Positions 4,813 through 32,280 of a stretch of 64,000 nucleotides of DNA are shown piece after piece; positions within the stretch are counted from its first letter, which is position 1, and every line of letters begins with the position of its first letter. The position numbers and the translations under genes were made by a program. The stretch is from Mesodorylaimus sp. YZB2_4. Lineage: Eukaryota; Nematoda; Enoplea; Dorylaimida; Dorylaimidae. The stretch covers positions 124,001-188,000 of the forward strand of contig JASANH010000448.1 of assembly GCA_030248295.1 (NCBI GenBank), in the 5' to 3' direction. The notes under the pieces are model-generated. The model was not told where the DNA came from, did not search any database, and saw only the letters and a list, made by a program, of their open reading frames with translations.

Positions 4813-7750
4813 ATCTAACCAATTCTTATTTCGTCGCTTCCAAGTGTCCAGATTTTTCCAAGAAAGTCATTGCTTTGATAATTTTTACTCGCTACAACTT
4901 GTTTTTTGAGAATTCTAGACGTTCCTATTTGGTGGCCGTTTGTGTTTAGGAAAGTCGAAAGTGCCCTGCGGCCTTTGTGCTTGAGTTTAAAACCTCAGCA
5001 AATTTGGGCCGCATGCAGTCATTGTTGATTTCTCGCTGGTTTACAGGATCAGCCAGCGCCTTTGAGCCCAATTCAAACAAAATTGTTGTCTTCTGCACTG
5101 ACTGGCTCTTTCACATATCTCTAGCAAAATTCGATCACATTGTAAGGCTTGGGCCCGACCCAAAACAAGAAGCCAATATCCGCAAGTGCTTTACTAAGCG
5201 GCCGCACACGAGCAGTCACAACGAGACACTGGCACGGGCACAATAACAGGAAACAGACAGGCCGCACCCTCGACCCAGACAGTTGGGGACCAAGGAGAGG
5301 CCAGGCGCGTATCATGCTGCACTTGGAGGTCAACCCACCTCTAGGCTCAGGGCATTAGCATGGATCCCAAGGCTAAACCAGGGTTTCAGGTAGGGCACCC
5401 AAGCATGACTGTACCTGAGCATCACTGGCGCCTTATCACTCAGCGGTTACCATATTCCAGACGTGTCCAACCCGTTACAACATCCGCTATCATACGAAGA
5501 CGTTAGACTGACAGTGGGGAAAAGCTGCCATGTCAGCTTCGTACTACTTCATACTGAATGTATACTCAAGCACCACAGGCGCACTGAGGGAGTGTTAAAC
5601 ACAGGATTCGTCACTGGTAAAAGTCTGCGACCCAGAGCCCAGTTTCACGGAGGCACTTCCAAGTGTTGGAGACTCCCCAAGTGACTATTTAACAAGCATC
5701 AGCGATTCACCCAAACGAAGTCACAAGTTAGAGCGTGAGAGGGGCTGATTGCAAGGACCTGCCAGCCGCCCGCGATAAACACAGCAAGCATCAAGAAATA
5801 TGGGCATCACGAGCTGATGGACGAGCCCTTGTAAAAACACTTGGATAAAGTGACTGTGAAAGATTGCGGCATAACTTGTCAATGAGCTTGAAGGCAGAAG
5901 ACAGCGGAGTCTTTGCACGGTGAAGGCGCAAGGTGCTGTGGGGTGGGCCCCTCTCACAGGGCGCAGAAATTGTGGTGCCAATATCATCGGCCCGCCAAAA
6001 GAAAGGAATCCATGGCAAAAACATAGGCGAATGGATAAAAATCAGCAATGCTACAAGTCTCCGCCCACTGTTTCTGAGACGTTGTAAGTCCGCGAAATTG
6101 TTCGTAGTTGTGCAAGTCTTGTAAGACTGCGAAGTGTCGGCGCATGGTATGGGGAGACGCTCGTATGTCTCTTCGTCGAGAAGACCTCGTCCTCCACTTG
6201 TTCAGGGCCGCGCACTGGTCGAGCATCACTTTCTGCACCACCAGCTGACACAGCCTCGATGGATAACTTGGGGTGAGGTGCTCCGCAATCGCGATCGCAG
6301 CTCGTCGTTACTGGGAATAGCGCCACGCAAAATTCATATTGTTCAAATGTCGAGCCATTTTGAGCAAAATTCAAAGTGAAGCGAGTAAAATGAAACTCGC
6401 TGGCCCTCTCTTACAGACTGTATTGTACACTCGACGGGTGGTCGCGCCGATGTGGGAAATGCACTAATGGCCCATTCAATTTGGTGAAACGCGAGTCGCC
6501 TGCGAGCTTGTAACTTGGTGAAACCTGGCCAGGCGGTGGCAGGCCAAAGTGTCTGGGGCTAGAAACTCAAAGCGAGTACTTTCTGGGCCAAGTGGGAAGA
6601 CGGGCGGAACATGGTGCCTACTGGTCTGATGTCTCCCTGCCGGGTCTCAGTCGCTCCCAGTTCCCTCGCTTCCAAAATCTTCAGGACAGACTTTAAAGTA
6701 CTTCCAAAACTGTCCTCAACGATTTTGCAGGAGTTTGCATCTCCTCAGAACTTGTGGACTGCTTGAGACTCCAGAGACCATTGACTCAAGTTTGCCTTTT
6801 CCCTGCAGTCTGCTAAAGTAGGAATGCCAGTAGGGCGCTGTAATGCTGGCGCAGGTTAATTTAGTTTCTGTACGTAGACTACAAGCAGATTTAAGCAAAT
6901 CGTTAGAAATATTTGACGAGTTTCAGCGCGAAGCTGAAAAAACTGTGAATCAGGGAGTCGGCGGACGAAAAATCTGTCACCCCACACGACTGACTTCGGT
7001 TATTTCGTATGTGTCAGCGATAAGCCTGGTAAAACCATTTAATTGCTGGTAAAATCCGACTCGCATCTCCCGCGTCTGACCCATTTGAAATCCTGCACTG
7101 TCTGTGCACATCTCAGTTCGATGTACTGGGAATCAGTGACGTCTTCATCGACGCCGCGCCATTGCTGGTTCTTTCATGACGAGGAAAAGTTGGGTGCAGT
7201 CGAAAGGAGACGCTGCGTGAAGACAAGAACACAAAAACTGCATTCAGGGGACTGGCAGCTCGTTAAAATGATTCCAGTAAAAATGTAGTCCTTTTTGCAC
7301 AGGCTGAGGGACTAACTGAAACATGCTGGCTTGGTGTAAAGGACAAACTTCACAAGTTGACGAGGCAATCTATCTAATTTCAAACCACTCATCACTTTTC
7401 AGCCATGTTAGCCAGGCAATTCGGTTTAGAATGGCCTAAAATTAAATGGTGGCATTTGATTTATTGCCACAACTCAAAAACGATTTCGTCGCTCGCCATT
7501 GACATTGAAAACTGCGAAAAATTTGACGAGCACCTGAAAAGGTGGACCGTGAATGAGAGGAAAAGAGGGGCTTTTGTCAATCACACATTATTCCGTGGTC
7601 GCGCACTGGTGGACGAGTTCGCGGCCGAGGATCCGAGCGGACGGACATTGAACTCGTTTCGACTGAATTCAGGCTGCATCGAGTGCAACCGCATCCGCCA
7701 GCCAATTTACCCAAATTTGGCCATCCTCCCCCACCAAAGTCAACGCGGCG
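4813..7750. other. Long intergenic stretch, no gene supported
   Basis: No exon with recognisable protein content was found on either strand over 2.9 kb. Open frames such as 5463-5684, 5984-6241 (minus) and 7405-7989 are short, lack motifs, and the last runs into the first exon of the next gene in a different frame. The DNA is of mixed composition without obvious tandem repeats. The region just before 7751 presumably holds the promoter of the UDP-glycosyltransferase, but I see no TATA box. Confidence 0.5.
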
Positions 7751-10074
7751 ATGATGAAACCCGCCATCGCTCTGCTCAGCTTCTTCCCGCTGGCCTGCAT
7801 CGAAGCCGCCCATATCGGCCTATTTGCCAGCACGGGATGCTACAGCCACGACATGCTGATGAGGAACCTGGCCGATCGGCTGGTGCTGGACGGAGGCCAT
7901 CGAGTGACCATCATTCAAATCCGTGTCTACGAATTCAATCGAACATTCCCCCCAGCCGAGGCCAACTGGACTTACTTGTCATTCAATAGCACGGGCCACG
8001 ACTCGGCCGCCCTTCAACGCAGGTCCCAACGACTGATGTGGTTGACCACCCTGCCCTTCGACGCCGACAAGTTCGACCTGGAGAGTGTCCGCGTGCTGGA
8101 CAGAATACATTCCTATCAAATGAGAGCTTGTTTCAGAGCTTTGCGGGATCCCACATTTGTGACCGCACTGAAATGGTTGGACTTGGACTTGCTCGTTGTT
8201 GATTACGTTCTCAACGAATGTGCTCTGGGACTCGGCCACGCACTCATGAACAGGGTCAATTTCGTGTATCTCTCCAATTACCCCGTGGTCAGTTCGTACG
8301 TGGAGAATATGGGCGTCTCGTCCAACCCGTCCTTCGTGCCGGCCGTCATCGGCTCTGAACGATGGCCCATGACCGCGGCTCGACGCACAGCTAATGCATT
8401 TCTGTACTTGCTGGTGTTTGGAACGAGAAGAAGATTTTATAGAAATGCATTGCGAACATTCAAATTGGCCTCGAATATCGATTTGCTTAGTTTGTCCGAA
8501 TTGGAACGACGAATGCTCATTTTCGCCACCCCATTCGAAATGTTACTCGACGCGCCTCGTCCGTTGGTGACCGGCCTGCGATATTTCGGATGCGAGCATT
8601 GTACGAACTCGGTCGCCGGGGCCAACATTACGCAGGTAAAATGGGGGAGGCCATTGTGCAAATGGATTACAGTGCAAGGGGGAGGGGGGGCAACGAGCCG
8701 CGTGGAAATAGACATACAAAAAGAATGCCAAGTTCAAAAACTACATGAAAATTATGGTACAAACAGATTTTATGGAAACTGTAACCCAGGATTCTGCATG
8801 TTCTACTGAGCTGGCCTTCCAATTTGCCAGTGTCGAAGTCGCTTTCACTAACTTGGCTTCTCACCGCCAGAATGATAAATCGGACATATTTTTAAGAACT
8901 TATTCTTTTCGCCTTCTCCGCAGAGAATCAAGACACAGCGGTGCCGCGTGCAAGCAAACCTGGCAGACGCAGGAGAAAATGTGGCGGACAAAAATTCCCA
9001 CCGGAACAGGCTAGTCTTTCGGCTGAAACATCAAGCCGATGGGTTGGCGTTTCCTAGAGTAACCCTCTATCGATACTCTCCCTTGGCTGGGAGACGCCAA
9101 CCTATCGAGTTGATGTAGTCGTAAGACTTTCCCTCAACAGTCGGAGCTTTTGTCCAGCCGACACCTGTCTCCCGTGCTCCTGCCGTGACACTGTCCGCCA
9201 ACTAATCACTCGTTTCCAGGCTCTTTCGCTACCTCCCACCTCAAACAACTTCATCGTGGTCTCGTTCGGCACAGTGACCAAAGGCGATTTGATCCCATTG
9301 GAGCACCTTGTCCGCTTGTTCCGCACTTTCTCCAGATTCCCCAACTTCACGTTCGTGTGGCAGCTGGACGCGCCGAGGGAGTACTTCGAGCGGGCTGTCC
9401 TAAGGGCGCTGAATTCGAGCTCGTTGCCAGAGCACATTCATATTTTTCCGTGGATTCCCCTGCGAAGAGTGCTGGCCGACCCCGGAGTGGCCTTGCTGGT
9501 CAGCCACGGCGGGGTGACCACGTGCATCGAGGCAGTGAACAGCGGGGTGCCAGTGCTGGGCGTGGCCATCCAGGGCGATCAGTTGTACAATTTGCAACGA
9601 TTCGTCGAGAAGGGCGTGGGCGAGTTCTTGCAGGTCACCAAATTGACTGAGCAAGTACTCTTCGAGAAAATGGCCAAAATGATTGGGGAACACGCGAAGT
9701 AAGACAACTTGCACTGGCCTCCAGCAGCTGAGGGGGGTCAGACCTCATCGAGCTGACTAGGATACGGGAAAATTCGGGTCCATCACAAACGCTCACACTT
9801 TTCCAACGCCTTCAGGTACAAAGAGGCGGCGTTAAGATTGAGGTCGATGCTCCAAGACTATAAATCCTTGGAAAAGAAACCGTCGTCCGTATTTTGGCTC
9901 AGTTGGGCAGTCGCACATTTTAGTCAGAAAGATAGCGGAAGAAGAATTTGGGCTGAAAAGTTTATTTTATCGAAGCATCCATCAAATTGGCTGGTCTATT
10001 ATAGTTTGGATGTCATTCTCGCTTGTCTCGCCGTTATTGGTGTTCTTGGAAATCTGGCAATTGTAACATGCTAA
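7751..10074 (+). CDS. UDP-glycosyltransferase 1 (UGT family), ER membrane
   Basis: Three exons (7751-8635, 9220-9698, 9816-10074) give 540 residues, the usual UGT length. These enzymes move a sugar from a UDP-sugar to a small lipophilic acceptor in the ER lumen. Residues 1-20 are a signal peptide. The N-terminal acceptor domain has the catalytic His at H33 (GCYSHDML) and its partner Asp at D151 (LLVVDYVLNECA). The C-terminal nucleotide-sugar domain has the signature region from HIFPWIPLRRVL through VSHGGVTTCIEAV to GVPVLGVAIQGDQ. A C-terminal hydrophobic anchor (residues about 508-540) ends IVTC, without a dilysine retention tail. ATG 7754 is an equally possible start. The 584-bp first intron holds dispersed-repeat copies. 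The paralog at 29910-32280 has the same exon count, an identical 479-nt middle exon and the same total length. It lies at the left edge of the putative cyclodipeptide cluster. Confidence 0.92.
9010..9185. repeat. Dispersed repeat family, two copies head to head
   Basis: Within the first UGT intron a minus-oriented piece (GGCTGAAACATCAAGCC, near 9022) is followed by a plus-oriented copy with CTGGGAGACGCCAACC (near 9087) and AGTCGGAGCTTTTGTCC (near 9138). The two copies face each other and could fold into a hairpin. The plus copy matches the longer copy at 10481. Confidence 0.5.
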
Positions 10075-12156: not shown

Positions 12157-15100
12157 TTATGGCCTAGTATGGTCAGATATATACCCCTCATTCTGGTAAC
12201 AATTAGCACTGCTCGATGGCGCTGAGCTGTCATTTACAAGCGCTTCTTGGGTGGCGGCAGCGACACAAGTTCCGCTGTCCTTTTCAGTCCACTTTGCCCA
12301 TTCTTGGATCTCAGCTGAATAAAACAAAATTCACTCATTATTATAATGATCAAAGAGATTAGCAATACCTGAGCCGAATATCAAAAATAATAAGCCAGCC
12401 GCTACTAATCCCCCGGAAATGACCAGAAACACGATTTGCCACTCGCCCGTGGTTCCCTAAAAACATGTTATGCAATCGTCATAACTCGCTCCGACCCGTG
12501 CTTGCATGGTCAAAGTAGTCCACAGGGCGGAAATAGGTCTTATTTCAAGGAAGCCGCAGGTTGAGACAAGCAAGCAGTGCCTGAACCATACCGCGCACAT
12601 TCACCCCAGAATCGCTGAATAACATTAGAGTACTCTTAATCAGAGCGGAACATTCCCGGACACTGTCCCTCCTGAATGGCCCAGTTGAAAGAGGACAGAT
12701 GACGGTCGTCCCTCGCTACTTGGCAGGCCTGGGTGGCCCTAGTCCCGGTCGGTATTTTGTGCCCGCCTGTCAGCACTTACGTGGACAGTGACTAGGCCGA
12801 CCATGTAAGGAGCGAGGACTGCTCCGATCTGGCCGACGAACCTGGACAGGGCGTTCACCATGCCCGTGTAAATGGGAGCGATGCAGACCAGACTGGTCAG
12901 AAAACCGGGCACTTGACACGAAAACAGGCCGTTGGCCATGGTGACAAGGGCCACGGCTAGTGCGGAATGATTGGAGTCCATGTAAGCGCAGGCGATCAGG
13001 AATGCAGCAACGACGAAAGACCCTGAAATTTGCAATTAGCGTTGCTGAATTCAGTCGAAATCAAACAATGCCGACGCACCGACAGAATTGAAAATTTTAC
13101 AGATGCATGTAGGACTGATTTTTGTTCGAGATTTCATTTGGTCGGCGATGGCAGCAAAAATTAGTTTTCCAAGTAGTTGCGACAAAAATGGCAGTGCACT
13201 GAGGAGACCATTCTGGAAAAATAAATCATGTTGGACATAAAATTTTGGGTACCCGCTCACGCAATGTCTGAAATAATCGATATGCACTTGAGAAATCATG
13301 CGGATGATATATACAATGTGTATGTACTGTACACATGCATTTATACATAGCTGTAGTGGGTACATAATTATGTAAGTTACTAAAGGCTATCGATTTCAAG
13401 CATTGCGAGACCTTTTGCTAATTTATGCCTGGAAGCACTTAGAATTGGAGACACAAGGCACCTTGAGACCCTGGCATTGTTTCACCAGCGCACACAACTC
13501 CGATTGGAGGAAGTCAAGTGTGGCGACTATAGCTGCCATTGAAGCATCGACCAGAGTGGTTTGCGTGTGCTAGCCAGGAAAGAGTAAGCATCCGTCCCCC
13601 CGTCTGCCAAGAATGCAGGTCACTACTTACTCGGGATAAATCAAACTGTAATGACTGTTCGAAATAAGTAGGAATGTACGAGGTCAGTGTGGCATTCATG
13701 GCCGTCAATGTAAAGCTGCCGAACACGCCGACCAGCAGAGGCAACGAGGTCAGCATCTTTATCCAAGGCACTTCTTTCAAAGTAATCTGATCGGAAGCAA
13801 CAATTCGCCGCACACATTTCATGCACTGCAAAATATACGACTTACTTTTCGCTTGTTTATATTTTGCTTGTGCAGTGAATCCAGAATAAACAGTCTTTCT
13901 TCATCTGAGATACATTTCGATTCATCAGGATTATTCGATGCCCCGATGAACCAGAAGAATATAATTGGAATGTTGATTATGCCTGAAACAAGGACTTTGT
14001 CAAGTTGGGGGCTGCGGCTGTGGCTGCACTTGAATAATGAATTAACAACAGGTCAGTCGAGTGCTGTGATGATTGTAGCTCCAGGTATAGCCAGCCAGCT
14101 GTTGCAATCCATACGATCCTTGCAACAAGCTCCTAAATCAATGGCCTTTGGGGTATTTTTCATATATATTTGTAGTCCAGACAAATGCAACGATTTTTCA
14201 CTCCTGACCCTTACTTACTTCAGCTAGTTCTATTTCAGCATTAGCTTGATACCACCTTACCCGTTGAAATATCTCCAACATATCCTATCCCTAAATATCT
14301 CTGATATATCCAATCCACTGATATTTTGTATATCTATGGATATATATTGGATATATATTGTGTACTAATGGATAAGGGATATACATTCACGTCTTCGATA
14401 TATCCATGGATATATATATTGGATGTATATTGTGTACCAATGGATAAGGGATATACATTCATGTCTTCGATATATCCATGGATATATATATTGGATGTAT
14501 ATTGTGTACCAATGGATAAGGGATATACATTCACGTCTTCGATATATCCATGGATATATATATTGGATGTATATTGTGTACCAATGGATAAGGGATATAC
14601 ATTCATGTCTTCGATATATCCATGGATATATATATTGGATGTATATTGTGTACCAATGGATAAGGGATATACATTCACGTCTTCGATATATCCATGGATA
14701 TATATATTGGATGTATATTGTGTACCAATGGATAAGGGATATACATTCATGTCTTCGATATATCCATGGATATATATATTGGATGTATATTGTGTACCAA
14801 TGGATAAGGGATATACATTCATGTCTTCGATATATCCATGGATATATATATTGGATGTATATTGTGTACCAATGGATAAGGGATATACATTCATGTCTTC
14901 GATATATCCATGGAATATATATATTGGATGTATATTGTGTACCAATGGATAAGGGATATACATTCATGTCTTCGATATATCCATGGATATATATATTGGA
15001 TGTATATTGTGTACCAATGGATAAGGGATATACATTCATGTCTTCGATATATCCATGGATATATATATTGGATGTATATTGTGTACCAATGGATAAGGGA

Positions 15101-18100
15101 TATACATTCATGTCTTCGATATATCCATGGATATATATATTGGATGTATATTGTGTACCAATGGATAAGGGATATACATTCATTTCTTCGATATATCCAT
15201 GGATATATATATTGGATGTATATTGTGTACCAATGGATAAGGGATATTCATTCATATCTTCGATATATCCATGGATATATATATTGGATGTATATTGTGT
15301 AACAATGGATAAGGGATATACATTCACGTCTTCGATATATCCATGGATATATATATTGGATGTATATTGTGTACCAATGGATAAGGGATATACATTCATG
15401 TCTTCGATATATCAATGGATATATATATTGGATGTATAATTGTGTACCAATGGAATAAGGGATACACAGTCAGGTCCTCGATATATCCATGGATATATAT
15501 ATTGGATGTATATTGTGTACCAATGGATAAGGGATATACATTCATGTCTTCGATATATCCATGGATATATATATTGGATGTATATTGTGTACCAATGGAT
15601 AAGGGATATACATTCATTTCTTCGATATATCCATGGATATATATATTGGATGTATATTGTGTACCAATGGATAAGGGATATACATTCATGTCTTCGATAT
15701 ATCCATGGATATATATATTGGATGTATATTGTGTACCAATGGATGAGGGATATACATTCATGTCTTCGATATATCCATGGATATATATATATTGAATGTA
15801 TATTGTGTACCAATGGATGAGGGATATACATTCATGTCTTCGATATATCCATGGATATATATATTAGATGTATATTGTGTACCAATGGATAAGGGATATT
15901 CATTCATATCTTCGGAATATCCATGGATATATATATTGGATATATATTGTGTACCAATGGATAAGGGATATTCATTCATATCTTCGGTATATCCATGGAT
16001 ATATATATTGGATATATATTGTGTGCCAATGGATAAGGGATATTCATTCATATCTTATATATACCTATGGATATATAGTTAATGCATATCAATATGTACG
16101 GGAAATTCGTTGATATCTCTGGCACATTCACTGATATATCTTGTATATCCATGGATATATAATGTGCACCAACGGATATCGATATCCATTAATATTTCTG
16201 GTACATCAATATAACAGAGATATCCATACTTCTTTCTACCAGCGGGATATATCAGCCATATCGAGATCTCTGGTACATCCTGGGATATCTCCGCTTCAAT
16301 GCGAGTTTCTGCCATCCAAAGAGGTTACGATTTTCAGCGGACTTGACTGTTATCGGGTGACATACGCGATATTGGTTATCTTACCAGTGACATAAAATAT
16401 GGACGGCCAGCCCCCGAGAAAGTGCTTCTGTCTGCACAAGAACGCATTCAGCGGACTGCCAATAATGCTCGCAACCTGACTACCTGAAAAGTAACATTTT
16501 CTGCTGTACTGACAAGGAATCAATCGTGCTTTCATTAAAATCCGGGGCTAGTAAGGGTGTTTTTTGTGCCAAATGGAATATGAACAAAGGAATGCAAGAA
16601 AAAAAGTTTTGAGGTTGTGCAAGGCTCAAAGAGCACATATTCTGGAAACGTAGGAACAAAGGCGTTGGAGCACGCCTCACCAGCTGTGTAAATGGCGATG
16701 ACGGACGAGCGCTCGGTCGGCGGGATCCATCGAGCAGTGATCGATGCTATTGCAGGAAACATGGCAGCCTAAAGCGATTTCTGTTGATTGGACAGCGATG
16801 TGTAACCAAGTCTGGCAGGCGTAGAGCAGAGTATGGGACAAACACTTCGAGTGGAGCAGGCGAGTCTCCGACGGGTTGACGTCGTCTAGCCAGGTACAGT
16901 AGGCACGAAGGTTACAGGCAGAAAGGCCAGTCAGAACTATGTGACCGAACTGAGGGTGTCTCACCTGGCCGCCCACTCCCATGATCAGCCGCAGCACGAA
17001 CAGTGGAATCAGGCCACCAGCCGTGGCTGCGATGGGCGTCAACACACACCCGACCAGGTTTATCACCAGGCAAATGCTAACGATTAGTTTGGGATTGTAC
17101 CGATCGGATAAGAAACCAGCGGGAAGACCAGATATCATGCCGCCCCAGAATATGGCCGAAAATACATAACCCTGTTGCTCGCTGTCCCACAACAGGCTGC
17201 CCTAAGAAATAAGGAATGTAACCAGCCAACAAATACCAAACGGGGAAAATAGTAAAAACGCATGAAAGGTGGAAAGAAAACTAAGAAGTTGTAGATAGTG
17301 CACAGCCGAAGATGGCCACCCCCGACCCCGAAAAAGACCGACCGAGGGTCGAGGTTCACAAGAGGCAATCAATTAGCCGCAATTTTTTTGCTAGCTTAAT
17401 AAATAGGGTGTACGGCTGGTTCGCCAATATCTCCCGCCTTTTTTGAAGTGGATGACTTGTCTCTTGAAAATACAATTAGAAAAGCATGGAAATATGCTGA
17501 AACTTGCAGGACACATCACAAAATAAATTGGGAGCTGTTAGCAGAAACCTCGAGCCTCGAAAAGTCACCCTCGGCCGAACACTAGTTCTAGAATGGGGCA
17601 GCACAACATCTTACATCATAAATGTCCGATTCGATATCGGAAAGTTCATGTCTGTGGGAAGAATTATGGGGTGCGACAGCCGTGTTGTTGACCATGCACA
17701 CCATGGCCATGCTGAGTGTGCTCATGACCAGAATGTTGCCCATAAATGCCAGCATCAGCACCATGGTCAGTCGGAATCGGGATGATCTCACAGTCCAGAA
17801 TGCTGAAACGAATGCAAGATTGAGCAGGAGTTGGATCGGGGTGTGTAATCCTGGGGCCAAGGCGTACGGAATAGAATTCGATCTCCCTTGACAGGGAGGG
17901 AGCCTAAACCCGTCGGCTTGATGTTTCAGTCGTAGCTAGGTATAGTCGCAATACGCCTTGCCTTGCGGCTGCATTATCTCCTGCGTCTCGCCTGGCTGGC
18001 ATCTACTTCACACACCCTGTATTGCCTCTAGGCCGCTTCTGCCTAATATCGATTGATCGATTAGAGGCTTCTCACAATTCGATCAGTCGAAAACTTACGC

Positions 18101-19135: not shown

Positions 19136-22100
19136 ATGATCATTTTAACCCTTTTCCTCCTATTTCTTCCATTAGCACTGATTCTTTCTGAAATAGTCAG
19201 GAAGAGACGATATTCAAAGTTGCCACCTGGCCCCGCGGTATGGCCTTTATTGGGAAATGTGTTTCGTAAGTAAAAGGTCAGAAAATGGAAAATGGTTTGA
19301 GAATTTGGATTTTTAGATTTTATCTCCAAGAAACTGCCCAAGCACGAAATTATTGCAGAAATGAGCGAAAAATATGGCGACGTGTTTACTGTGTGGTTTT
19401 TCACGAAACCAGTCGTCATCCTGTCGTCTTTGGATGCTGTTCGCCAAGCCTATATTCATAGGCGGGAGGACTTTGCCAGCAGGCCCGACACGCTAGTTGG
19501 TAATCACGTTTGCTCTGGTCAGGGTGTGCTTTTCTGATGGAAATAGGACGAAATGGGGGTTGAATCACCAAATCATAAAAGTATCTTCCTTCCTCCTCCT
19601 TGATCACCTGCTGGTCGGTGCGGCATGCGCTGGTGGCCCATCGATTGGCGCAAGTGGTCAACCAGTCCAGTCTGGTTGATGTTTTACCAGTCTTATTGTC
19701 AGACTGAGGTTTGAGGCTGAGGTTCATGCGGAGTCTCCGCGGGACACCATCTATGCGCCTCAGGGAGTCGTCCGACGGGAGTGAAACGACTGGTGGGACG
19801 TGCTGTAGGAGGTGGGGTATGCACAGGGGCACAGCTGAGGAAAAGCATGCTGGTAGCAAGTGCTCGTTTCAGCCGTGGGCCTGTTCGATGGCTATCACAA
19901 CGACTTGAGTTTCGGCCGCTATACCGAAAAGTGGAAGGCCAAAAGGAAATTATTCCATCATTCAGTCAGGTAATGAGGATATGAAAATGTCGTCCAGGCT
20001 GAAACACCGACAGCAAACACTGGCAGCACTGATTAGAGTGCACATGCACTTGACAGTAGGCACAATCCTGCCGAGTCTTTACTCACCCATAGTCTAATGG
20101 CGGAAGTGATTGAGAAAATCCGCTCATATGGTGTCACAGGCACTAAGAAAATTCAAATTTCACATTTTCGCGCCAAATTTTTCTGGGCAACAAAAAATGC
20201 TTTGAGCTTAGTTTTGTTTCATATGAATCTTGCGATTAGTAAACACAGACGATGGTTTTGAAACTGGGTTCCAGCATTTTGCAGTGCTTGCCAGATTTTC
20301 CTGGATTCCTCAACCAGGGCAAAGCGCTTGTAGCCTGCTTTCTCCAAGCACCAGCTCCTGGCTCCTATCCCTCACTGCGCACAGACATCCAAAATAGAGA
20401 GCAATCGCGGTAAAACAAACAAAATTAGGCCATATCTGAAAGATCAGCTGCTGAGAATTCCTTGCAGCCAACTTTTGAAATTTAGCGCCAAAAAATGCAA
20501 TCTTGACTTATCGCCCAAGAAAATACACGCATTTCAGAAGCGAGAAGCACAGGATAAAAGAAAGGTTGAAAGTAAATTGCAGATGTCAAAGTGAAAACTG
20601 AAAAACCTCCAAACTCCAGAGTACAGTAATTTACAGGGTTTATTCCCAGGGTTTTGGTCAACTGACCTTTCAGACATCGCCTCATTTTGTTTCTTTTGCT
20701 CTATTTTGGATGGGAACTTACGATTAGCTCTACTCGTCCTCTACTGACCAGACACCCTGCAGGTCGCTCATTGCAACCAAGCAGTTCGAACTGGAAATCA
20801 ACCATATTACTCAGAAAATAATCACGGAAATGCTCGAAGCAGGACCAGAATCCGCTTTCGATATTCAATCTTTCATTCATAAAGCATATTACAACGCTTC
20901 TTTGGTACTGGCGTTCGGAAAACGGTAGGAAAATTGGGAAAACTAGAAATTTGACATGAATTCGATTGTTTTGCAGGTTCGAATTCGATGAGCCAGAATT
21001 CTTACGTTTCGTAGAAATGCACCACGATGCAAATCAGGGAATCAGTGTGTGCCGATTCTACGACTCGTTTCCCTTCCTCCACTACGTGCCCATATTCCAC
21101 CTGTCTCCTGCACTGCGATCCATGAAAAGGGCAGTCAAACACTTGCAAAACTATTTGCTGCGATGGTTTGTGGAAGCCAGGCAAAACGAGTCTGCAGGTG
21201 AACCAAACTGGGTGGCGCTGCAGACCACGTCGTAGCTTGGTGTTTTCAGATGAAAAAGAGAACATGGTGCAGGCACTGGCCAATGGTGTGAATCGGGCTG
21301 AGGTGAAGGCCGATGGGGCAGAAAGCAGTGAGATGTTTACTAATGAAGAAATAATGCACATGCTGATGAACCTATTCACAGGTGGGGCCAAACTCCGCTT
21401 TCTGTTTCTCCTTGTTTTTTGCCATTCATGGTGGCCCAAAAGTCCAGTTACAACTTTGAAACTGGCGCGGGCGGCTGTTTTTTGCGGGAAGTTTAAAAAT
21501 AACCATGTAACCGGACTTTTGGGACACCTTGTTCACCAGGGCTATCTGAATGGTCACCTCGGTTTCAGCCACCACAATACCGACCAGTTCAGCCACACTT
21601 TGGCTGCTCTTGGAAATGATCTTACACCCTGAAATCCAAGAAAAGTGCTACGAGGATTTGCAGAAGGTCAGCTTACTTCAGGACGCTCAACAGGACATGA
21701 CTAATGAACGTGTAGATTGCGCGCAGGTGACTGCTGGCCGGCCGATCTCCTTGTCCGATCGTGCACACCTGCCCTACGTCGAGGCGTGCATTATGGAGGC
21801 CCTGCGACACTACAGTCCCATTTCATTGAACCTACCGCACACCCCCAGCAGCGACGCTCCGTTGAGTAAGTCAGTGCCCGGACTGTTCCCCGGCTGACAA
21901 TGAGGAATACACTTGCACTTTGAACTTGTGCAGGAGATTACATGATTCCGGCTGGCACAGAAACGATTATGAATATTTGGGCGCTTCATCACGATCCGAA
22001 ATCATGGAAAGACCCGAATAATTATAATCCGAATAATTTCCTGGACGAGAATGGCCAACTCGTGCGCCCACTCTGCTTCTTGCCGTTCGGGGCGGGACGA

Positions 22101-22292
22101 CGCGTGTGCCCCGGCGATGCGTTCGCAAAGAACCTCATTTTCCTCACCTTCACTCAAATGCTACAGCATTTGCGATTGGAAAGAGTGCCGGGCTGCGAGT
22201 ACTCGACGCAATGGTCGCATATCAGCAGCGAGTTCGTCAATATTCCCGAGGCATATCCGGTGAAGGTGGTTGCAAGGAGCAAGCGCGAGTGA
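19136..22292 (+). CDS. Cytochrome P450 1, microsomal, CYP2-like layout
   Basis: Nine exons (19136-19265, 19317-19499, 19873-19969, 20763-20924, 20977-21197, 21250-21381, 21569-21666, 21727-21865, 21934-22292) encode 506 residues. P450s insert one oxygen atom into a substrate using NADPH-P450 reductase at the ER. An N-terminal anchor (MIILTLFLLFLPLALIL) is followed by the proline-rich hinge LPPGPAVWPLLGN. The K-helix ExxR is E365-R368 (EALR), and the heme-binding loop is FLPFGAGRRVCPGD with the thiolate ligand C446. The I-helix reads LFTGATTIPTSS, so the usual acidic residue of (A/G)Gx(D/E)T is replaced by Thr, which may alter oxygen activation or indicate an unusual reaction. A TATA box lies at 19082-19090 and an AATAAA at 22373. 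The gene is divergent from the SLC17 transporter. Substrate is unknown; a role in oxidising a cyclodipeptide is a hypothesis from its neighbours. Confidence 0.94.
19650..19705 (+). repeat. Dispersed repeat family fragment
   Basis: In P450-1 intron 2 the sequence has CAACCAGTCCAGTCTGGTTG followed by ATGTTTTACCAGTCTTATTG, a diverged version of the hairpin-like CAACCCGTCGGGTTGATGTTT block of the family. Confidence 0.35.
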
Positions 22293-23682: not shown

Positions 23683-25873
23683 TCATCCATTCACTCGTCT
23701 TTCGGCCAAGATCTTGAAGGGGACTGGAGTACGAATCAGGGCTACCACAGCCTCCAATGGTGGCTTCGGCTCGTCTGATGGAAACGAAAATTTTAAATGC
23801 GTCACCAAAGCGGTGAAGAAAACGAACAGTTCCATCTTAGCCAGTGATTCCCCGAGACACGACCGCTTGCCTAGAAGACTCGTCTGGTGTGCTGAAAACT
23901 GAAAAACAAGTCATTCATACCAGCCATGAATGGAATCAAGTGGGCGTGCGCCTGCCGCCCATCGTTCTTGCCCGGCAGGAAACGGGTGGGGTCGAATGTG
24001 GCGGGGTCGAAGTAGACGCGGGGGTCGTTCAGGACAGCGGTGAGCAAGGACACGACGACTGTCCCGGCCGGGATGTGGTAGCCGCGCAGTGTGCCGGGTG
24101 CCAGTGTCCGACGCATGACCCCGGTCGGAATGAGATCAGCGAATCGCTGTATTTCCATGATGGTGGCCTCGGTGAAGGGCAGTCTCGTCCTGTCAGCGTA
24201 GGCGGGCACGGTCGACTGGCCAGCCAGTTCGCGCTTGATTTCTTCGTAAACTCGATCTTGGACATGCGGATGATGGGCCAGCAGGAAAAGGGCCCACCTG
24301 AGGGTGGTGGCTGTGGTGTCAGTGCCAGCTTCGAATAGATTCCCCACGCTGGCCACCAGTTGCTTGTCGTTAAATGTCCAATCGTCTTTATTTTCTTGTT
24401 GACTTTTATAAAATGCTTGAACATAATTTGTGGGTTCTTCAACCTGCGATTTGTAATTGGCCAAAACTGCCTGCGATTGTTTTTTGATAAAATCAACCAT
24501 CTCGTTGTTTGATGTTTTGAGATGATTCATCTGAAATGGCAGGGCGCAGAAGATGGGTTTGTTTTCTATGCGAGATGTCTCTGGATGTCAAGCATCGGAG
24601 AGAGCTAGTCTATTCTACGTCCATGGGTGAGATGTGAGATGTATGAGATGTCTGGACCAGGTGGCCAATCAGAAGCGGGGTTAGGGCGGGGCTTGTCCAT
24701 CAACAGCCAATCAGAAGCAGGGTTGTGGGCGTGGCTTGTTCATCAACAGCCAATCAGAACTTACTTGGGGCAAATAGGACACCAACTTGGCCACATTCTT
24801 TGACAGAACCATGGGGGTCATAAAACTGAGATAAGTCTCAGTAGAGCGCGCTCTCAGAGAACGCAGCAATGCGCGATATTCCTCGTCCTCGTATTCGAAT
24901 CTGCGTCCAAATACCAGAGATGAAATGACATTAGATGTGGCGTTGCAGAGCAGAAGGGCCGGGTCGAATGGTGTGTCCTGCAGGGCGGACATTGCGCGGA
25001 TCAGATGGTCAGCCTCGTCAGCGATCCGGGGCTCGATGATCGGACGACCAAAACCAAAATCCCGCAGAGTGGATAGAGCGAATCGTCGATGCGTTTTCCA
25101 TAATTCTCCTTCCGAGTTTACCAGGCCTGCCAAAGGATTGCAACGAGGTGTACCTATTGTGTTCGGGCATGCTAGTATTCCCCACCCGTTGAAAGCTGTG
25201 CAGTACCCCAGTATTCTCAACCCGTTGAAAGATGTACCACTTCTGCCAGTAGACCCGTAGAGTCAACCCGAGCGCGCACCCTCCTCAAACTCTTCTTTAC
25301 ACACGCCAATCCCAATATACTGTACACTCAAAAACTTCCTCCTGCGGGAGTCGAATCTGCGACCACTGGACGCCCAAATCTTCCCAACTTGTTTAACACG
25401 TGAGATTCCCACTCAAAACTCAGGTTTCTGTGCCTACCTATGCAGTCCTAGCAAAAGTGTTGGCTTTCAGGTAGTTCCAGGTTAAGTAGCATCAGTATTT
25501 CTCACCTGTTGAAATTGCATGGTTAACAGTCAGAACACTCACCCAAGCCAGCTATCTCATCAGCGAATATATTGTGGAATACGGGCCTTCCTGAGTACAC
25601 GTCGCCTTGCTTGACCAGGGCCTCTTGCACGGCCTGGTAATCGGCCAGCACCAGCACCAGCTTGTTGCCAACGTAGACCGTGAAGACTGGCCCGTACTCC
25701 CCCGCCCATTGCAACAGCGTCTTGTACAGGCTCGCTGCGTTCCAAGTCTGCAGGGCGGAACCGAGTAGGGGCAGGCCCCTGGGACCAGGCGGCAAGTCGG
25801 GTGGCACGCTCGCGTACCACCAAATTGCCAATGCGAATAGGAGAGCGATGCCAGCGATGACTAACCACGCCAT
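23683..25873 (-). CDS. Cytochrome P450 2, microsomal, CYP2-like layout
   Basis: Four minus-strand exons (25873-25543, 25126-24765, 24530-23921, 23870-23683) encode 496 residues. An N-terminal anchor (WLVIAGIALLFALAIWWYA) leads to the hinge LPPGPRGLPLLGS. The C-helix motif ELWKTHRRFALSTLRDFG is typical of CYP2-like enzymes. The I-helix is canonical (EAGTDTTATTLRWAL, A299-T303), ExxR is E357-R360 (EIQR), and the heme loop is FMAGKRSCLGE with C439. The last intron is only 50 bp. The in-frame GTG and CTC codons upstream of ATG 25873 are not needed. A TATATAT on the minus strand at about 25912-25918 lies some 40 bp before the ATG. The gene is divergent from the cyclodipeptide synthase at 26325 across 451 bp and convergent with P450-1, with which it shares family-level similarity only. 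Its intron structure differs (4 against 9 exons), so it is not a recent tandem copy. Confidence 0.95.
24665..24760. repeat. Tandem 42/43-bp repeat carrying CCAATCAGA boxes
   Basis: Two full units start CCAATCAGAAGC and end CATCAACAG, followed by a third partial unit. Each has a CCAAT-type box and a GGGCGTGGC- or GGGCGGGGC-type box. The repeat ends exactly at the 5' splice site of P450-2 intron 2. It could be an intronic regulatory element or an incidental duplication. Confidence 0.7.
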
Positions 25874-26324
25874 GATGACAATGAGCACTGCCCAGCCCGA
25901 TGCAGTCTGTCACATATATACGACAGTTTCGAGAACATTTCGCGAAAATGACTCAAATGTTGCATGTTTCAAATAATGCCTGTTAGCTGAACGCAGCCAG
26001 CGCAAGAGTTACGCTGCACTTTGCCTATTCTGCACGCCATGTCATCAGGACCAAGTAAGAGTTGCTGATTGAAGCATTTGTCACTCGCACAAAATGACAC
26101 GAAAAGTGTATTTAAAGCGGAAAATTCCATGTGATTCGAGAAAGACTTTGGAGCGCGAAAGGAAGGAGAATCGTGGTTTGACGAACATTCTGCCCACATT
26201 TGGGCGTAGAGCTGAATATAAGAATGCTGCGCGTCCCAGAAGTTTGGTGCAAGTCTTGCTCTTCCTTCTAAAGATAACAATTGTGTATTTTCGGAGTCGA
26301 CACACAAAGTCCAAACAGAACATC
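25874..26324. promoter_or_regulatory. Shared divergent promoter of P450-2 and the CDPS
   Basis: These 451 bp separate two oppositely oriented starts. On the minus strand GTATATATG (25911-25919) is placed as a TATA box for P450-2. On the plus strand GTGTATTTAAAG (26105-26116) and GAATATAAG (26214-26222) are candidate TATA boxes for the CDPS. An in-frame ATG at 26094 would extend the CDPS by 77 residues. No other gene fits here, so the two genes very probably share control elements. Confidence 0.65.
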
Positions 26325-27113
26325 ATGAAATCTTCGTCCGCCGTGGTCAACTACAGGATCAGTGGGCTTGGTCGGTTCCCCGCCTACAAGCTGGAGGATG
26401 GGGCCTTCAAGGATCGAACGTTCGTGTACGCGGTCAGCGTGGGCAAGGACCATTTCGAGGCCGACTGGGTGGCTGGCTACGTCAACTTGCACAAGTCGCT
26501 GGGTTCGAGCAGAGTGTGCGTTCTGGTGGCTGACACACTGCAGAGACACAATCTGTCCTGTTACCACGAGGACGCCCACGAGAGGTCGTTGGAGAAGGGG
26601 CGCCAGTGGGTGCACAAATACGCGCCACTCTTCGACGGCTTGGGCCACGATGTGACCAAGGAATTCATGCGCTGGAGTCGATTCACAGATCACCCCGATT
26701 TCCCCAAATATTTGCGAATGATGCGAGACTTGGAAGCCAGCGACGCCGAGTTCCGAGCAGCCTTGGACGAGTCGATCGACGAGTACATGCGGCGGTCGAG
26801 CGGGGCCCCGATGGCGTGCAGCCCGCAGGAGAAGAGACGTCGCTCCAGCGACTATTTCGTGGAGGAGTGCGCAGTGATTTGGATTCTGGCCCAGGATCGA
26901 GGCCTCAAGGGCATCCTCTACCCCAGCAAGTGCGTCCCACCCATCGCCTACACTCTGCAACTGATCAACGCCCAGGCCAGGGCCGACGACCCTTTCGTGT
27001 GGTTCCAGTTGTGCCCCAAGAAACAAAAGGCCAAATGTATTTTTGAAACTGAGCAATTGTTGAAGCAGGCTGAAGAAAGTATGGATTCTTGGAATGAGGA
27101 AAAAATGTTTTAA
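26325..27113 (+). CDS. tRNA-dependent cyclodipeptide synthase (CDPS), intronless, XYP type
   Basis: A single exon encodes 262 residues. CDPSs take two aminoacyl-tRNAs and form a cyclic dipeptide (diketopiperazine) through an aminoacyl-serine intermediate. Landmarks match Streptomyces AlbC: the nucleophile S38 in YAVSVGKDHFE (AlbC S37), the acidic helix stretch SDAEFRAALDESIDEYM, Y177 and E181 in DYFVEECAVIW (AlbC Y178/E182, same spacing), and Y199-P200 in GILYPSKCVPP. With K41 at the AlbC N40 position and Pro after the Tyr, it falls in the XYP rather than the NYH subfamily. The basic RRR stretch at 171-173 and KKQKAK near 232-237 could contact tRNA. ATG 26325 gives the usual bacterial length; an upstream in-frame ATG at 26094 would add 77 residues with a hydrophobic stretch (LVQVLLFLLKITIVYF). 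All neighbours have introns but this gene has none, which suggests horizontal acquisition. The product dipeptide cannot be predicted from sequence alone. Confidence 0.93.
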   Translation: MKSSSAVVNYRISGLGRFPAYKLEDGAFKDRTFVYAVSVGKDHFEADWVAGYVNLHKSLGSSRVCVLVADTLQRHNLSCYHEDAHERSLEKGRQWVHKYAPLFDGLGHDVTKEFMRWSRFTDHPDFPKYLRMMRDLEASDAEFRAALDESIDEYMRRSSGAPMACSPQEKRRRSSDYFVEECAVIWILAQDRGLKGILYPSKCVPPIAYTLQLINAQARADDPFVWFQLCPKKQKAKCIFETEQLLKQAEESMDSWNEEKMF

Positions 27114-27935: not shown

Positions 27936-29909
27936 AAAATGTGTCCCTTCACCCTCGAGTGCGCATAAGCGTTTGCTAAAACATGAACATGCTTAGTCAA
28001 GGATCGGGATGGGATGGAAAGGACGGAATCGACGTCTACTCGGCACGCGGAACATTTCCCAAAAAGACTACTGACAACCAAATGAAATCGTTTAATACGA
28101 GCCGATGTGCAAGCCAGAAATGCGAAGACCACGAATGACTACTACGGATGGCTGAGCACGGCAAAATAAGCTCCTTATATACTGTACATTTCTAATACAC
28201 ACGGGTGTAGGGCGCTAGTAGTGCCCCAACCTGGCACAGATGAACCAATCGTACACACAATAGACATTCCCAGGTCGACCTGCCAATTAGGCGATATGCA
28301 AATCACACTACACACTACACATGGGGGCTGCATCCCCTTCAGGTTTGCACACCTAAATCAGGTCCTATCACATTTGGCAACACGCCCTCGACTGCTTTGA
28401 TTCCAGTCCAGTTCTGCCATGATCCATCCCTGTTGGACTTTAATCCCAGATTCAGTTGCGTGGTATAAGGGACCAACACTGCACTTCTACTCAACGCTGC
28501 CACACCCGTCCACTTGTCAAACCTTGTAACCGAGGCTTGCAGCGACCATTCACGCCCCCTCTGCGTCCCCAATGGGACCCCTCCACAGTGGCATCCTGGA
28601 CAGGACAGGCCGACTGTAAACTCTGCTTCCGACTCTCCACTCGGAGCATATCGCTGGGTGAGCCTGGCGTGCAAGGTTTACAGTTCACAAACTACCCAGA
28701 ACGAGTCCAGCCCTCGTTACGCTGCTTACCAAACGGCCGACCCGGGCATCCCTGAACCAAGGACGGGTCGGGACGCGGGACGTGGTGCACAATGATCGAG
28801 AATAACAACGACAAAAGTAGATACTCGAGTTTTCTTTGACTCATCGGCAGCTGATCGTCAGCATGTCCTGTGCATTCCCGAGGACACGACTGACTAGTTT
28901 CCTGGCCTGATCTTACAGACTGTAGAAATACCTCACATATCACACATCCCCTGCCAGTTTGCGCGCACCGAATCAGGTCCTAGTGCACGCAAAGTGTCCT
29001 CAACTAACTCGATACAAGTCCTTCTGTCATCATGAAACGTGTCATAATCGATGACTGTAAACCTCTCTGCAAAATAGTAGACGTCTGGTCAGCTGGCCAG
29101 CAGTGGTCAGCGCCTTGGTCCTACGCATTTTTGAATTCTTGTGTGCTGGAAGCAGTGTTGAAAAAACTCGCAGGGTTTATCGAAACTTGGTTTTCAGGTT
29201 TCGGACAACTTTGGAAGGATAACAAATCATTCAGTTGAGTGATTCAGTGCCAGTTTCAGTTAACTGAATCTTTTCAAAACTGTGTCATCGCTAGTCTGGA
29301 CGCGCGGTGTTTATTGTATACTGTACAACAGCACACACAGGACGACTGAACAGGGGCGGGTATGTGTTCACCTTCGAGTGCGACTAGGTGAATGCACACC
29401 GGTGGCACAAGCACGGAAGAAACAAAGCTGGTGAGTCCTGGCCAAATTATTGATTCTAGTTCTGGCACACTGTGGAATACACAGCCAAAGAACTGGTGCT
29501 CGGTTCGCCCCAGGGCATAGTTTTGTGCTGGGGATTCATTTCGCTTCCAAAACACTATGAGAGGGTGTGCATGACACGTGCTGTGGGCAGTCACTGGACC
29601 AATCAGATCCTCGGAGGGAAAGGAGACGAGCATGGAAGTCACTCAACAAGCCCCGTTTATCTTTGCCTTGCCCTCCATTTCTACTGCGACCTTGAATATT
29701 CGACCAGCCTTCACTGTGTCGTTGGGCAGGTGTGGACTTTGGTCAGAGCCCCTCTTCGGGGGCTCGCCAGTCGGGACTGGTTTTCTCTGTTTATCTCAAA
29801 GTGCCGCCATCCAGTTTCTCTTGGCCGCTATCCGATTGCGCCTAAGGTCATTGCATGTGTGTTCTGCCGCAGCGCGCGACAGGGGATAAATGGCAGTCAT
29901 TCGGTCGCC

Positions 29910-32280
29910 ATGGTTGGGCGACTGGCAATGACTCGTCTGCCCTGTCTCCTCCTGGCCATCCCGTGCACGCTGGCCGCCCACGTCGGCCTATTCGCCAGCA
30001 CGACCGGCTGTTTCAGCCACGACATGCTGATCAGGGATCTGGCCGATCGACTGGTGCAGGACGGGCATCGAGTGACCATGCTCCAAGTGCGGGTCTACGA
30101 CTTCAATCGAACCATACCCGCCGCCAAGTCCAGCTGGGCCTACGTCTCGTTCAATCGAACCTGCGACGAGTCGGCCGTCCTGCAACGCCGATCGCAGAAG
30201 TTGATGTGGTTGACCACGCTGCCCTTCGACCACAACAACTTCGACCTGGAGAGCGTACGCTTATTCGACAAACTGTACTCTTACCAATTGCGGGCCTGTT
30301 TCGGGGCGTTGCGCGATGACGCATTCATGAGTCGAGTCAGGTCGCTGGAGTTGGACTTGTTGGTGGTGGACTACTTGCTGAACGAGTGCGCCCTCGGATT
30401 CGCGCACGCCATCATGACCAGTCCCAACCTGGTCTACATATCCAACTACCCCGTAGTCAGTGCCAGTGTGGAGAATATGGGCGTCCCGTCCAACCCAGCC
30501 TTCGTGCCCGCAGTGATCGGACCCGAGACTCGGCCCATGAGTGCGCTCGGGCGAGCACTGAACACTGTCCTCTACATAATTATGTTCATTCTGAGGGTAC
30601 AATTCCATTTTCGCGCCTTGAACACTTTCAAAACGGCGGCCGACATCGATTTGCCCAGTTTGACCACTTACGAGAACAGGACCTTGATTTTCGGGACCCC
30701 CTTCGAGATGTTGCTCGATTCACCCAGACCGTTGACCACGGGCCTGAAATATTTCGGGTGCGAGCACTGCACTGGAGCCGAGGCGAAGGGGAACATCAGT
30801 CGAGTGAGTGGCCCTGTTGGTGCAGTCATTCATTGGCACAGGTGATCACGGCACAAATTGCATGCACTCTTGCATGTGCAGAGTTGTCGGAAACAGCGCC
30901 GATTTCGGATGCTGTGGGGATGTCAGGCCGCTCGATTCTATCGTTTTACTTGGCACTCACAGGAAAGGTTCACATGGGAAAAGGAGTGAGTCTGAGGTGG
31001 ATGGAGAAGGGTGCAATACTTGCGAGGCACAGGAGTCACCAAAAACAGATAACAGGACTGAGGTTGAAACGTTCCGACCCCATTTTTTCCCAAATTTCTT
31101 TGTGACCAGAATGTCTAACCGACCGATGCAGCCAAAATGTGGAGGGCGACTGTTTCTCCAACGATTTGTAATCGTGCAGCATTGCTTGCATTTTTGAAGC
31201 CGCTTTTTATATCTGAAACAAAGCAATGAGGAAAAGTTACAAAGTCATTTTCTGAACATACCTGGCATTTTGTTGACTCATTTGTGTCATTTTGTGCAGC
31301 AGAATATCTTCTTTGCATGAACTCGGCCGTTGCCTGGTCGCTCTGGATGGCCACGCCCAGCACTGACACCCCGCTGTTGACTGCCTCGCTGACCGTGGTC
31401 ACCACCAGCACCACCCTGGGTCCGTCAGCAGGCTCCTCAGGGGAGTCGAGAGGAACACAGGTTGCTCAAAGACCTCGAGTCGTCATGAGGCTCCCTTTTC
31501 AGGTTCTGTCAGTACCAGTCTCAGCCCGCGGCATCGTACTGGTCTCGTTCGGCACAGTGTCCAGGGGCGATTTGATCCCGCTCGAGCAACTTGTTCGACT
31601 AATCCGCACATTCACCAGATTCCCTCACCACACGATCGTCTGGCAGTTGGATGCGTCGAGAGACTACTTCGAGCAGGCCGTGGCCAAGGCCACAAATTCG
31701 ACCACCCTGCCCGGCCACGTGCACGTGTTCCCCTGGATTCCCCTTCGGAGCCTGCTGACGGACCCCAGGGTGGTGCTGATGGTCAGTCACGGAGGGGTGA
31801 CCACGGTCAGCGAGGCAGTCAACAGCGGGGTGCCAGTGCTGGGCGTGGCCATCCAGGGCGATCAGGCATTCAACCTGCAGCGACTGGTCGACAAGGGCAT
31901 GGCAGAGTTCGTACAAGTGGCCAAATTGAAGAAAGATATTCTCCTGCACAAAATGACACAAATGATTCAACAAAATGCCAGGTATGCTCAGAAAATGACT
32001 TTGTAACTTTTCCTCATTGCTTTGTTTCAGATATAAAAAAGCGGCTTTAAAAATGCAAACAATGCTGCACGATTACAAATCGTTAGAGAAACAGTCGCCC
32101 TCCACATTTTGGCTGAATTGGTCGGTTAGACATTTTAGTCACAAAGAAATTGGGACAAAAATGTGGTCGCAACGTTTTATTTTCTCCAAGCACCCAACTA
32201 ATTGGCTCGTTTATTATAATCTGGACTTGGTTTTTTGGGTTGCCACCAGTCTTATTGGTTTTGTGACGTTGACGTCCTAG
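29910..32280 (+). CDS. UDP-glycosyltransferase 2 (UGT family), ER membrane
   Basis: Three exons (29910-30803, 31503-31981, 32031-32280) encode 540 residues, the same length as UGT1, and the middle exon is 479 nt in both. A signal peptide covers residues 1-23. The catalytic pair is H37 (GCFSHDML) and D154 (LLVVDYLLNECA). The sugar-nucleotide domain holds VFPWIPLRSLL, VSHGGVTTVSEAV and GVPVLGVAIQGDQ. A C-terminal anchor follows NWLVYYNLDLVFW and the protein ends TLTS. ATG 29910 was chosen because the signal peptide starts there; the same frame is open upstream to 29472 but that part has no UGT similarity. Intron 1 (699 bp) carries an inverted copy of the gene's own exon 2-intron 2-exon 3 region. 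With UGT1 it brackets the transporter, P450 and CDPS genes. Its acceptor may be a P450-oxidised cyclodipeptide, which is inference. Confidence 0.93.
31065..31460 (-). pseudogene. Inverted partial copy of UGT2 inside UGT2 intron 1
   Basis: Read on the minus strand, this block matches UGT2 from about 31735 to 32185: the end of exon 2, all of intron 2 and the first part of exon 3. Translation gives VTTVSEAVNSGVSVLGVAIQ, nearly the UGT2 signature, but bases for the SHGG part and for the stretch after GDQA are deleted. Intron 2 is retained with one or two changes, so this is a DNA-level, recent inverted duplication, not a retrocopy. It lacks a start and the N-terminal half and cannot make an enzyme. 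In the UGT2 pre-mRNA it is antisense to the downstream exons. Confidence 0.9.

Follow-up and report, generated by a model that had tools for sequence, protein, structure and literature searches.

How does an animal genome come to hold a short, intron-free gene whose product resembles bacterial cyclodipeptide synthases (CDPSs), and does that gene still encode a working enzyme? The question is raised by a 262-residue reading frame (its product is called here the window protein) in a stretch of 64,000 nucleotides (the window) on C186, a 199-kb contig of a nematode genome assembled to 145.1 Mb in 1067 contigs. We consider it probable that this is a resident nematode gene encoding a CDPS of the XYP subfamily, gained from a bacterium, later duplicated and partly homogenised by gene conversion, and still specifying a functional enzyme. 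As far as the openly licensed papers covered here show, it would be the first CDPS reported in a nematode and the first of XYP type in any animal. Among the openly licensed papers of PubMed Central (PMC) that were listed, judged by titles and the starts of abstracts, no nematode CDPS was found, nor was anything found there on a horizontally acquired diketopiperazine biosynthesis in Caenorhabditis elegans. A known enzyme family thus appears in an unexpected host, and the short, intron-free gene is directly testable, an established E. coli assay being available. Papers are cited below by PMC number, for the excerpts that bear on each point.

Assignment to the XYP subfamily

The first-pass annotation had described a single-exon CDPS gene of the XYP group with S38, K41, Y177, E181, Y199 and P200 at the expected places and all catalytic landmarks intact, and both the translation and the alignment on a solved relative bear this out (Table 1). 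In a phmmer search of the PDB, the window protein matched the CDPS of Nocardia brasiliensis (Nbra-CDPS, 5mlq; E 2.6e-23) and that of Fluoribacter dumoffii (Fdum-CDPS, 5ocd; E 1.2e-10), and all six distinct sequences at E<=10 carry a CDPS label. NCBIfam TIGR04539 also matches (E 3.8e-9, 36.4 bits), a profile of 65 sequences (alignment A2) reaches AlbC in the PDB (E 0.0097), and the predicted fold is the Rossmann fold of class-Ic aminoacyl-tRNA synthetases, as the earlier annotation had anticipated. On these sequence comparisons, membership of the CDPS family is near certain.

Some profile results weigh on the other side. The TIGR04539 score lies below the curated cut-off of 45, and Pfam PF16715 gave no match to the window protein at E<=10, in a search where HMMER filters drop most weak matches; run against the whole genome, the PF16715 profile gave no match and the controls gave none either. 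Of the profile support expected in the first-pass annotation, TIGR04539 therefore supplies a sub-threshold part and PF16715 none. Since four bacterial proteins named as CDPSs by NCBI (P0009, P0012, P0013, P0015) are likewise without a PF16715 match, this profile seems insensitive on the branch of the window protein, and further CDPSs may therefore be hidden in animal genomes.

A protein search at E<=10 found two relatives among 2314 candidates, P0001 (60% identity) and P0002 (58%), and a search with an alignment including a piece of Nbra-CDPS found 181 proteins at E<=0.001. Among the 120 of these that were listed, all those with a named organism are bacterial; many are annotated as tRNA-dependent cyclodipeptide synthase and others as hypothetical protein. 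Of 127 pattern-matching stretches in GTDB genomes, 98 encode relatives, and the 80 kept include those of Nocardia, Gordonia, Mycolicibacterium, Streptomyces, Pseudomonas, Xenorhabdus, Photorhabdus, Legionella and others.

The XYP subfamily is defined by a residue other than Asn at position 40 and by Tyr-Pro at 202-203 (PMC13062777). The window protein has Lys41 and Tyr199-Pro200 at these places, instead of the N40 and H203 of the NYH subfamily, and its best solved relatives, Nbra-CDPS and Fdum-CDPS, are XYP enzymes. Basic β2 and β7 strands, with L(R/K)FKK in β7, are a further XYP trait (PMC7566563), and this consensus is partly kept, as LCPKK in the window protein and as LRPKK and LYPKK in P0001 and P0002. 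The reading frame is open upstream to 26073, and an alternative ATG at 26094 would give 339 residues; 26325 is the likelier start codon because a second copy of the gene, described below, has nothing alike upstream.

Active site and predicted function

Ser38, Tyr177, Glu181 and Tyr199 align on S34, Y172, E176 and Y194 of Nbra-CDPS. The first, second and last of these Nbra residues correspond to S37, Y178 and Y202 of AlbC and Snou (PMC13062777, 2026), and the catalytic set S37/Y178/E182/Y202 (AlbC numbering) is thus complete, the E182 equivalence coming from spacing and the others through Nbra-CDPS. Ser38, in AVSVGKDHF, is invariant across all 65 sequences of A2. Catalysis by the window protein is likely on this pattern of residues. 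By homology, the Rossmann-fold enzyme would bind an aminoacyl-tRNA through its CCA end and pass the aminoacyl group to Ser38; a second aminoacyl group would be taken from another aminoacyl-tRNA, and the cyclic dipeptide released with the help of Tyr199, Tyr177 and Glu181 also lying in the active site. Since the catalytic residues are kept, the worm may make cyclodipeptides itself; a role in chemical defence or signalling is a guess. In the excerpt of a 2023 survey, no nonribosomal peptide synthetase was found in Dorylaimia and the word cyclodipeptide is absent (PMC10531068), so that, if the host belongs to Dorylaimia, these worms would have in a tRNA-dependent route a further means of making peptide metabolites.

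Nbra-CDPS (XYP; 5mlq, 9i5m, 9iaj, 9iam) makes cyclo(Ala-Glu), and the window protein is about 30% identical to it. Nbra L32, two residues before the catalytic S34 and at a position that we take to line the P1 pocket, is replaced by Ala36, and the Nbra dimer residues N108, F114 and S117 by E113, R119 and D122. A prediction of the product from pocket residues was dropped, because CDPS pocket data derive from NYH structures (PMC5816076) and only two P1 positions could be placed, tentatively.

Is the protein perhaps a CDPS by descent that has ceased to make cyclodipeptides and now binds either aminoacyl-tRNA or another partner, or is in decay? Several departures from conserved positions speak against a working enzyme. 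Position 44 is His in 62 of the 62 other A2 sequences and Phe in the window protein, P0001 and P0002 alike. Position 43, Tyr in 97% of A2, is His in the clade of the window protein, so that Nbra Y39-H40 becomes H43-F44; in Nbra-CDPS this tyrosine stacks on C74/C75 (PMC13062777). Nbra R156 is replaced by Ala161, with weaker acceptor-stem/phosphate contacts, and on an alignment read by eye Nbra K44 falls on W48 and the LRFKK of β7 becomes LCPKK. Altogether, half of the columns conserved at >=90% (19/38) are altered in at least one of the three clade members. The clade also sits on a long branch, and two attempts to express a fungal XYP CDPS in E. coli failed (PMC5816076). However, the four catalytic residues and the CCA-end contacts are kept in the window protein, P0001 and P0002, and neither genomic copy is interrupted by a stop. 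We therefore regard a loss of function as unlikely.

Origin

Where did the gene come from? As of June 2017, the known XYP CDPSs came from bacteria, with fungal ones and a single archaeal metagenome sequence as exceptions (PMC5816076), and for this reason gain from a bacterium by horizontal transfer is the best reading. Horizontal transfer, as put forward in the first-pass annotation, stands as the likeliest origin, but the phylogeny that was to support it settles no donor and places the clade on a long branch. Four trees unite the window protein, P0001 and P0002 (56-60% identical to it) at 100%, and the branch that carries them is 2-5 changes per column long. Among the matches listed, the named bacteria that come closest (Gordonia, Nocardia, Mycolicibacterium and kin) reach 30-34% identity. 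Against a simple account of transfer, the quick and careful trees and four approximately unbiased (AU) tests name no single bacterial donor. Constraining the clade to the Nocardia group gained 9.6 log units with the quick tree (p 0.686) and lost 6.0 with the careful tree (p 0.072), and constraints of the careful tree to a Legionella group and to a 37-row core lost 3.4 (p 0.443) and 5.4 (p 0.096), respectively. For these trees, 9 of 201 sequences were dropped as longer than 300 residues and the remaining 192 rows were reduced to 83 at 68% identity; in the 50-row trees, 33 of the 83 were removed by hand because they were divergent or had long branches.

Alternatively, an ancestral animal CDPS could have been kept here and lost elsewhere. 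CDPSs are known in cnidarians and annelids (PMC5816076; PMC2922099; PMC11610984): the first animal and fungal CDPSs include a Platynereis gene induced in the immune response (PMC2922099), and twelve eukaryotic CDPSs come from Ascomycota, Annelida, Ciliophora and Cnidaria (PMC11610984). However, the animal CDPSs in the excerpt of PMC5816076 (Nematostella Nvec-CDPS2 and those of coral, sea anemones and marine worms; Platynereis is not named there), which likewise reside in animal genomes and are compared here by description, are of NYH type, and the nematode gene therefore belongs to a different subfamily. Moreover, no named animal is among the 120 of 181 relatives listed, though the database searched does contain named proteins of Trichuris and Trichinella. 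Vertical inheritance is thus very improbable. Eukaryotic XYP CDPSs originate from fungi (Gibberella/Fusarium; PMC5816076); like the nematode gene they are eukaryotic and XYP, by description, and their hosts are fungal. The excerpt of a paper on horizontal gene transfer in Trichinella does not mention CDPSs (PMC9079694).

A viral origin was also considered, and a scan of IMG/VR gave 20 pattern-matching stretches, none encoding a relative. Separately, Xenorhabdus and Photorhabdus, two genera of nematode symbionts, have XYP-like CDPSs (loci L016, L021, L032, L033, L037, L041, L044 and L045), with no more than 24-25% identity to the nematode protein.

Two copies and probable gene conversion

Searched against the 145-Mb genome, the window protein finds two places, C186:150325-151110 (+), which is copy 1, and C186:4101-4877 (-), the second copy, 91% identical and with no internal stop. 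The Nocardia CDPS P0003 as query finds the same two places only at E<=10. The copies lie 145 kb apart and their flanks differ, yet over 688 columns only six are non-identical, and from about 26383 to 27025 the sole difference is one doublet, changing Ser175 to Gly. Both limits of this identity fall within the coding sequence, some 6 codons after the start and 27 before the end. Past the core, 104 nt (27 codons, the stop and 20 nt) agree at 47 sites, where shuffling gives a mean of 29.3 and 2 of 20,000 shuffles reach 47, and the tails of both copies are equal in length and end NEEK-x-F. A blastn comparison of the window with the preceding 124 kb (E<=1e-20) found no other shared stretch of at least 300 bp; shorter repeats are present. 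The simplest reading would have two paralogues of older date, with later gene conversion making their cores alike. The dN/dS ratio between the copies was computed and is not taken as evidence of selection, because conversion resets the core. P0001, which like P0002 comes from the Logan and ENA protein sets, has the N-terminus of the second copy (MQSV.VNYRIS). The history of the gene would then run from an old bacterial gain through far divergence and the adoption of host codon usage to duplication and conversion of the core.

Upstream of the second copy, the pyrimidine-rich CTCCTCCCAG (L002:2281-2291, - strand) ends 1 nt before the ATG and may be an acceptor for splicing or trans-splicing; copy 1 has no comparable stretch as near its ATG. 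A spliced-leader SL1 model gave 0 matches with 50 of 31302 candidates scored, and the controls were also silent, which makes the search uninformative. A TATA-like site occurs once in the 300 nt before each ATG, at -108 in copy 1 and -114 in the second copy, and is suggestive only.

Residence in a nematode genome

The CDPS locus resides in the nuclear genome of a nematode. Only 451 bp separate its start codon from that of a divergent cytochrome P450 gene with GT-AG introns (splice junctions read by eye), which agrees with the earlier description of an intronless gene amid intron-bearing neighbours. An intermediate-filament gene shares the contig with the CDPS, P450, UDP-glucuronosyltransferase (UGT) and major facilitator superfamily (MFS) genes. 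CDPS codon usage has a correlation of 0.87 with the pool of ten exon sets from neighbouring genes (each set against the rest 0.16-0.83, the sets being short and noisy), and third-position GC is 0.749 against 0.740 in the neighbours. For six hand-picked bacterial CDPS genes, the correlation is 0.65-0.68 in three of high GC and -0.41 to -0.51 in three of low GC.

The host was taken to be an animal, probably a nematode, in the first-pass annotation, and two markers support this. TTR-52 (PF01060), which we take to be a nematode-specific family, has 27 matches in the genome at E<=0.001, all above the cut-off, and none in 14 control genomes, a control that says little on other animals because the eight named controls are prokaryotes. 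Among 120 of 756 listed relatives of the window intermediate-filament protein, the closest named are from Trichuris (76%), Trichinella (73%) and other nematodes (about 57-67%). In a tree of 33 rows, it lies outside a 20-row clade with all sequences whose names we presume to be chromadorean (support 100/99) and is joined at 100/100 to two JGI sequences, with identity up to 97%; the tree gives no firm order among it, Trichuris and Trichinella. The taxonomy places the order Trichinellida in Dorylaimia, class Enoplea. We conclude that the host is a non-chromadorean nematode, probably of Dorylaimia; a life in soil is a guess.

Bacterial contamination or misassembly, to which the single exon and the bacterial names of the relatives (among the 120 listed) might point, is hardly credible beside a spliced animal-type P450 within 0.5 kb on a 199-kb contig, two copies with different flanks, host-like codon usage and, among the relatives listed, no named bacterial protein above 34% identity.

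Genomic neighbourhood

The CDPS gene has two P450 genes, two UGT genes and one MFS exon as neighbours within about 20 kb. Do they form a biosynthetic locus? A cyclodipeptide could be oxidised by the divergent P450 and perhaps glycosylated and exported by the UGT and MFS products, for defence or signalling. We find this doubtful: in the blastn comparison of the window with the preceding 124 kb, no P450 or UGT like those of the window was found beside the second copy, and genes of both kinds are common in nematodes, so that the grouping may be due to chance and the region an ordinary detoxification neighbourhood.

Table 1. Features of the window (positions counted from its first nucleotide).
Feature	Position	Strand	Remarks
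XYP-type CDPS gene, copy 1	26325..27113	+	262 aa, single exon, ATG to TAA
Ser38 codon, predicted acyl-acceptor serine (Nbra S34, AlbC S37)	26436..26438	+	alignment
Lys41 codon, X of X-Y-P (Nbra A37)	26445..26447	+	alignment
Tyr177-Glu181 codons (YFVEE), predicted catalytic Y and E (Nbra Y172/E176)	26853..26867	+	alignment
Tyr199-Pro200 codons, YP of X-Y-P (Nbra Y194-P195)	26919..26924	+	alignment
Stretch near-identical to second copy, putative gene-conversion tract	26343..27029	+	99.1% identity, 688 columns
TATA-like hexamer	26217..26222	+	108 bp before copy 1 ATG; suggestive only
Spliced cytochrome P450 gene, divergent from CDPS	23700..25873 (low end not fixed)	-	Pfam p450 E 4.5e-56, one exon
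Second cytochrome P450 (exons)	21126..22292	+	p450 E 4.4e-17, one exon; open reading frames
UGT-like gene (exons)	7667..9702	+	
Second UGT-like gene (exons)	29460..32006	+	64-65% identity to first, matched pieces
MFS transporter exon	16677..17201	-	MFS_1 E 7.3e-11

The window also contains a tandem array at 14329-16077, in which a 72-bp unit is repeated 24.2 times (96% matches); its long, repetitive open reading frames are no evidence of a gene. Elsewhere in the genome, COX1-like matches at 15 places (C73:251445-254668, C273, C741, C47 and others) have internal TGA codons, several with TAA/TAG, and would represent nuclear mitochondrial fragments and/or mitochondrial contigs.
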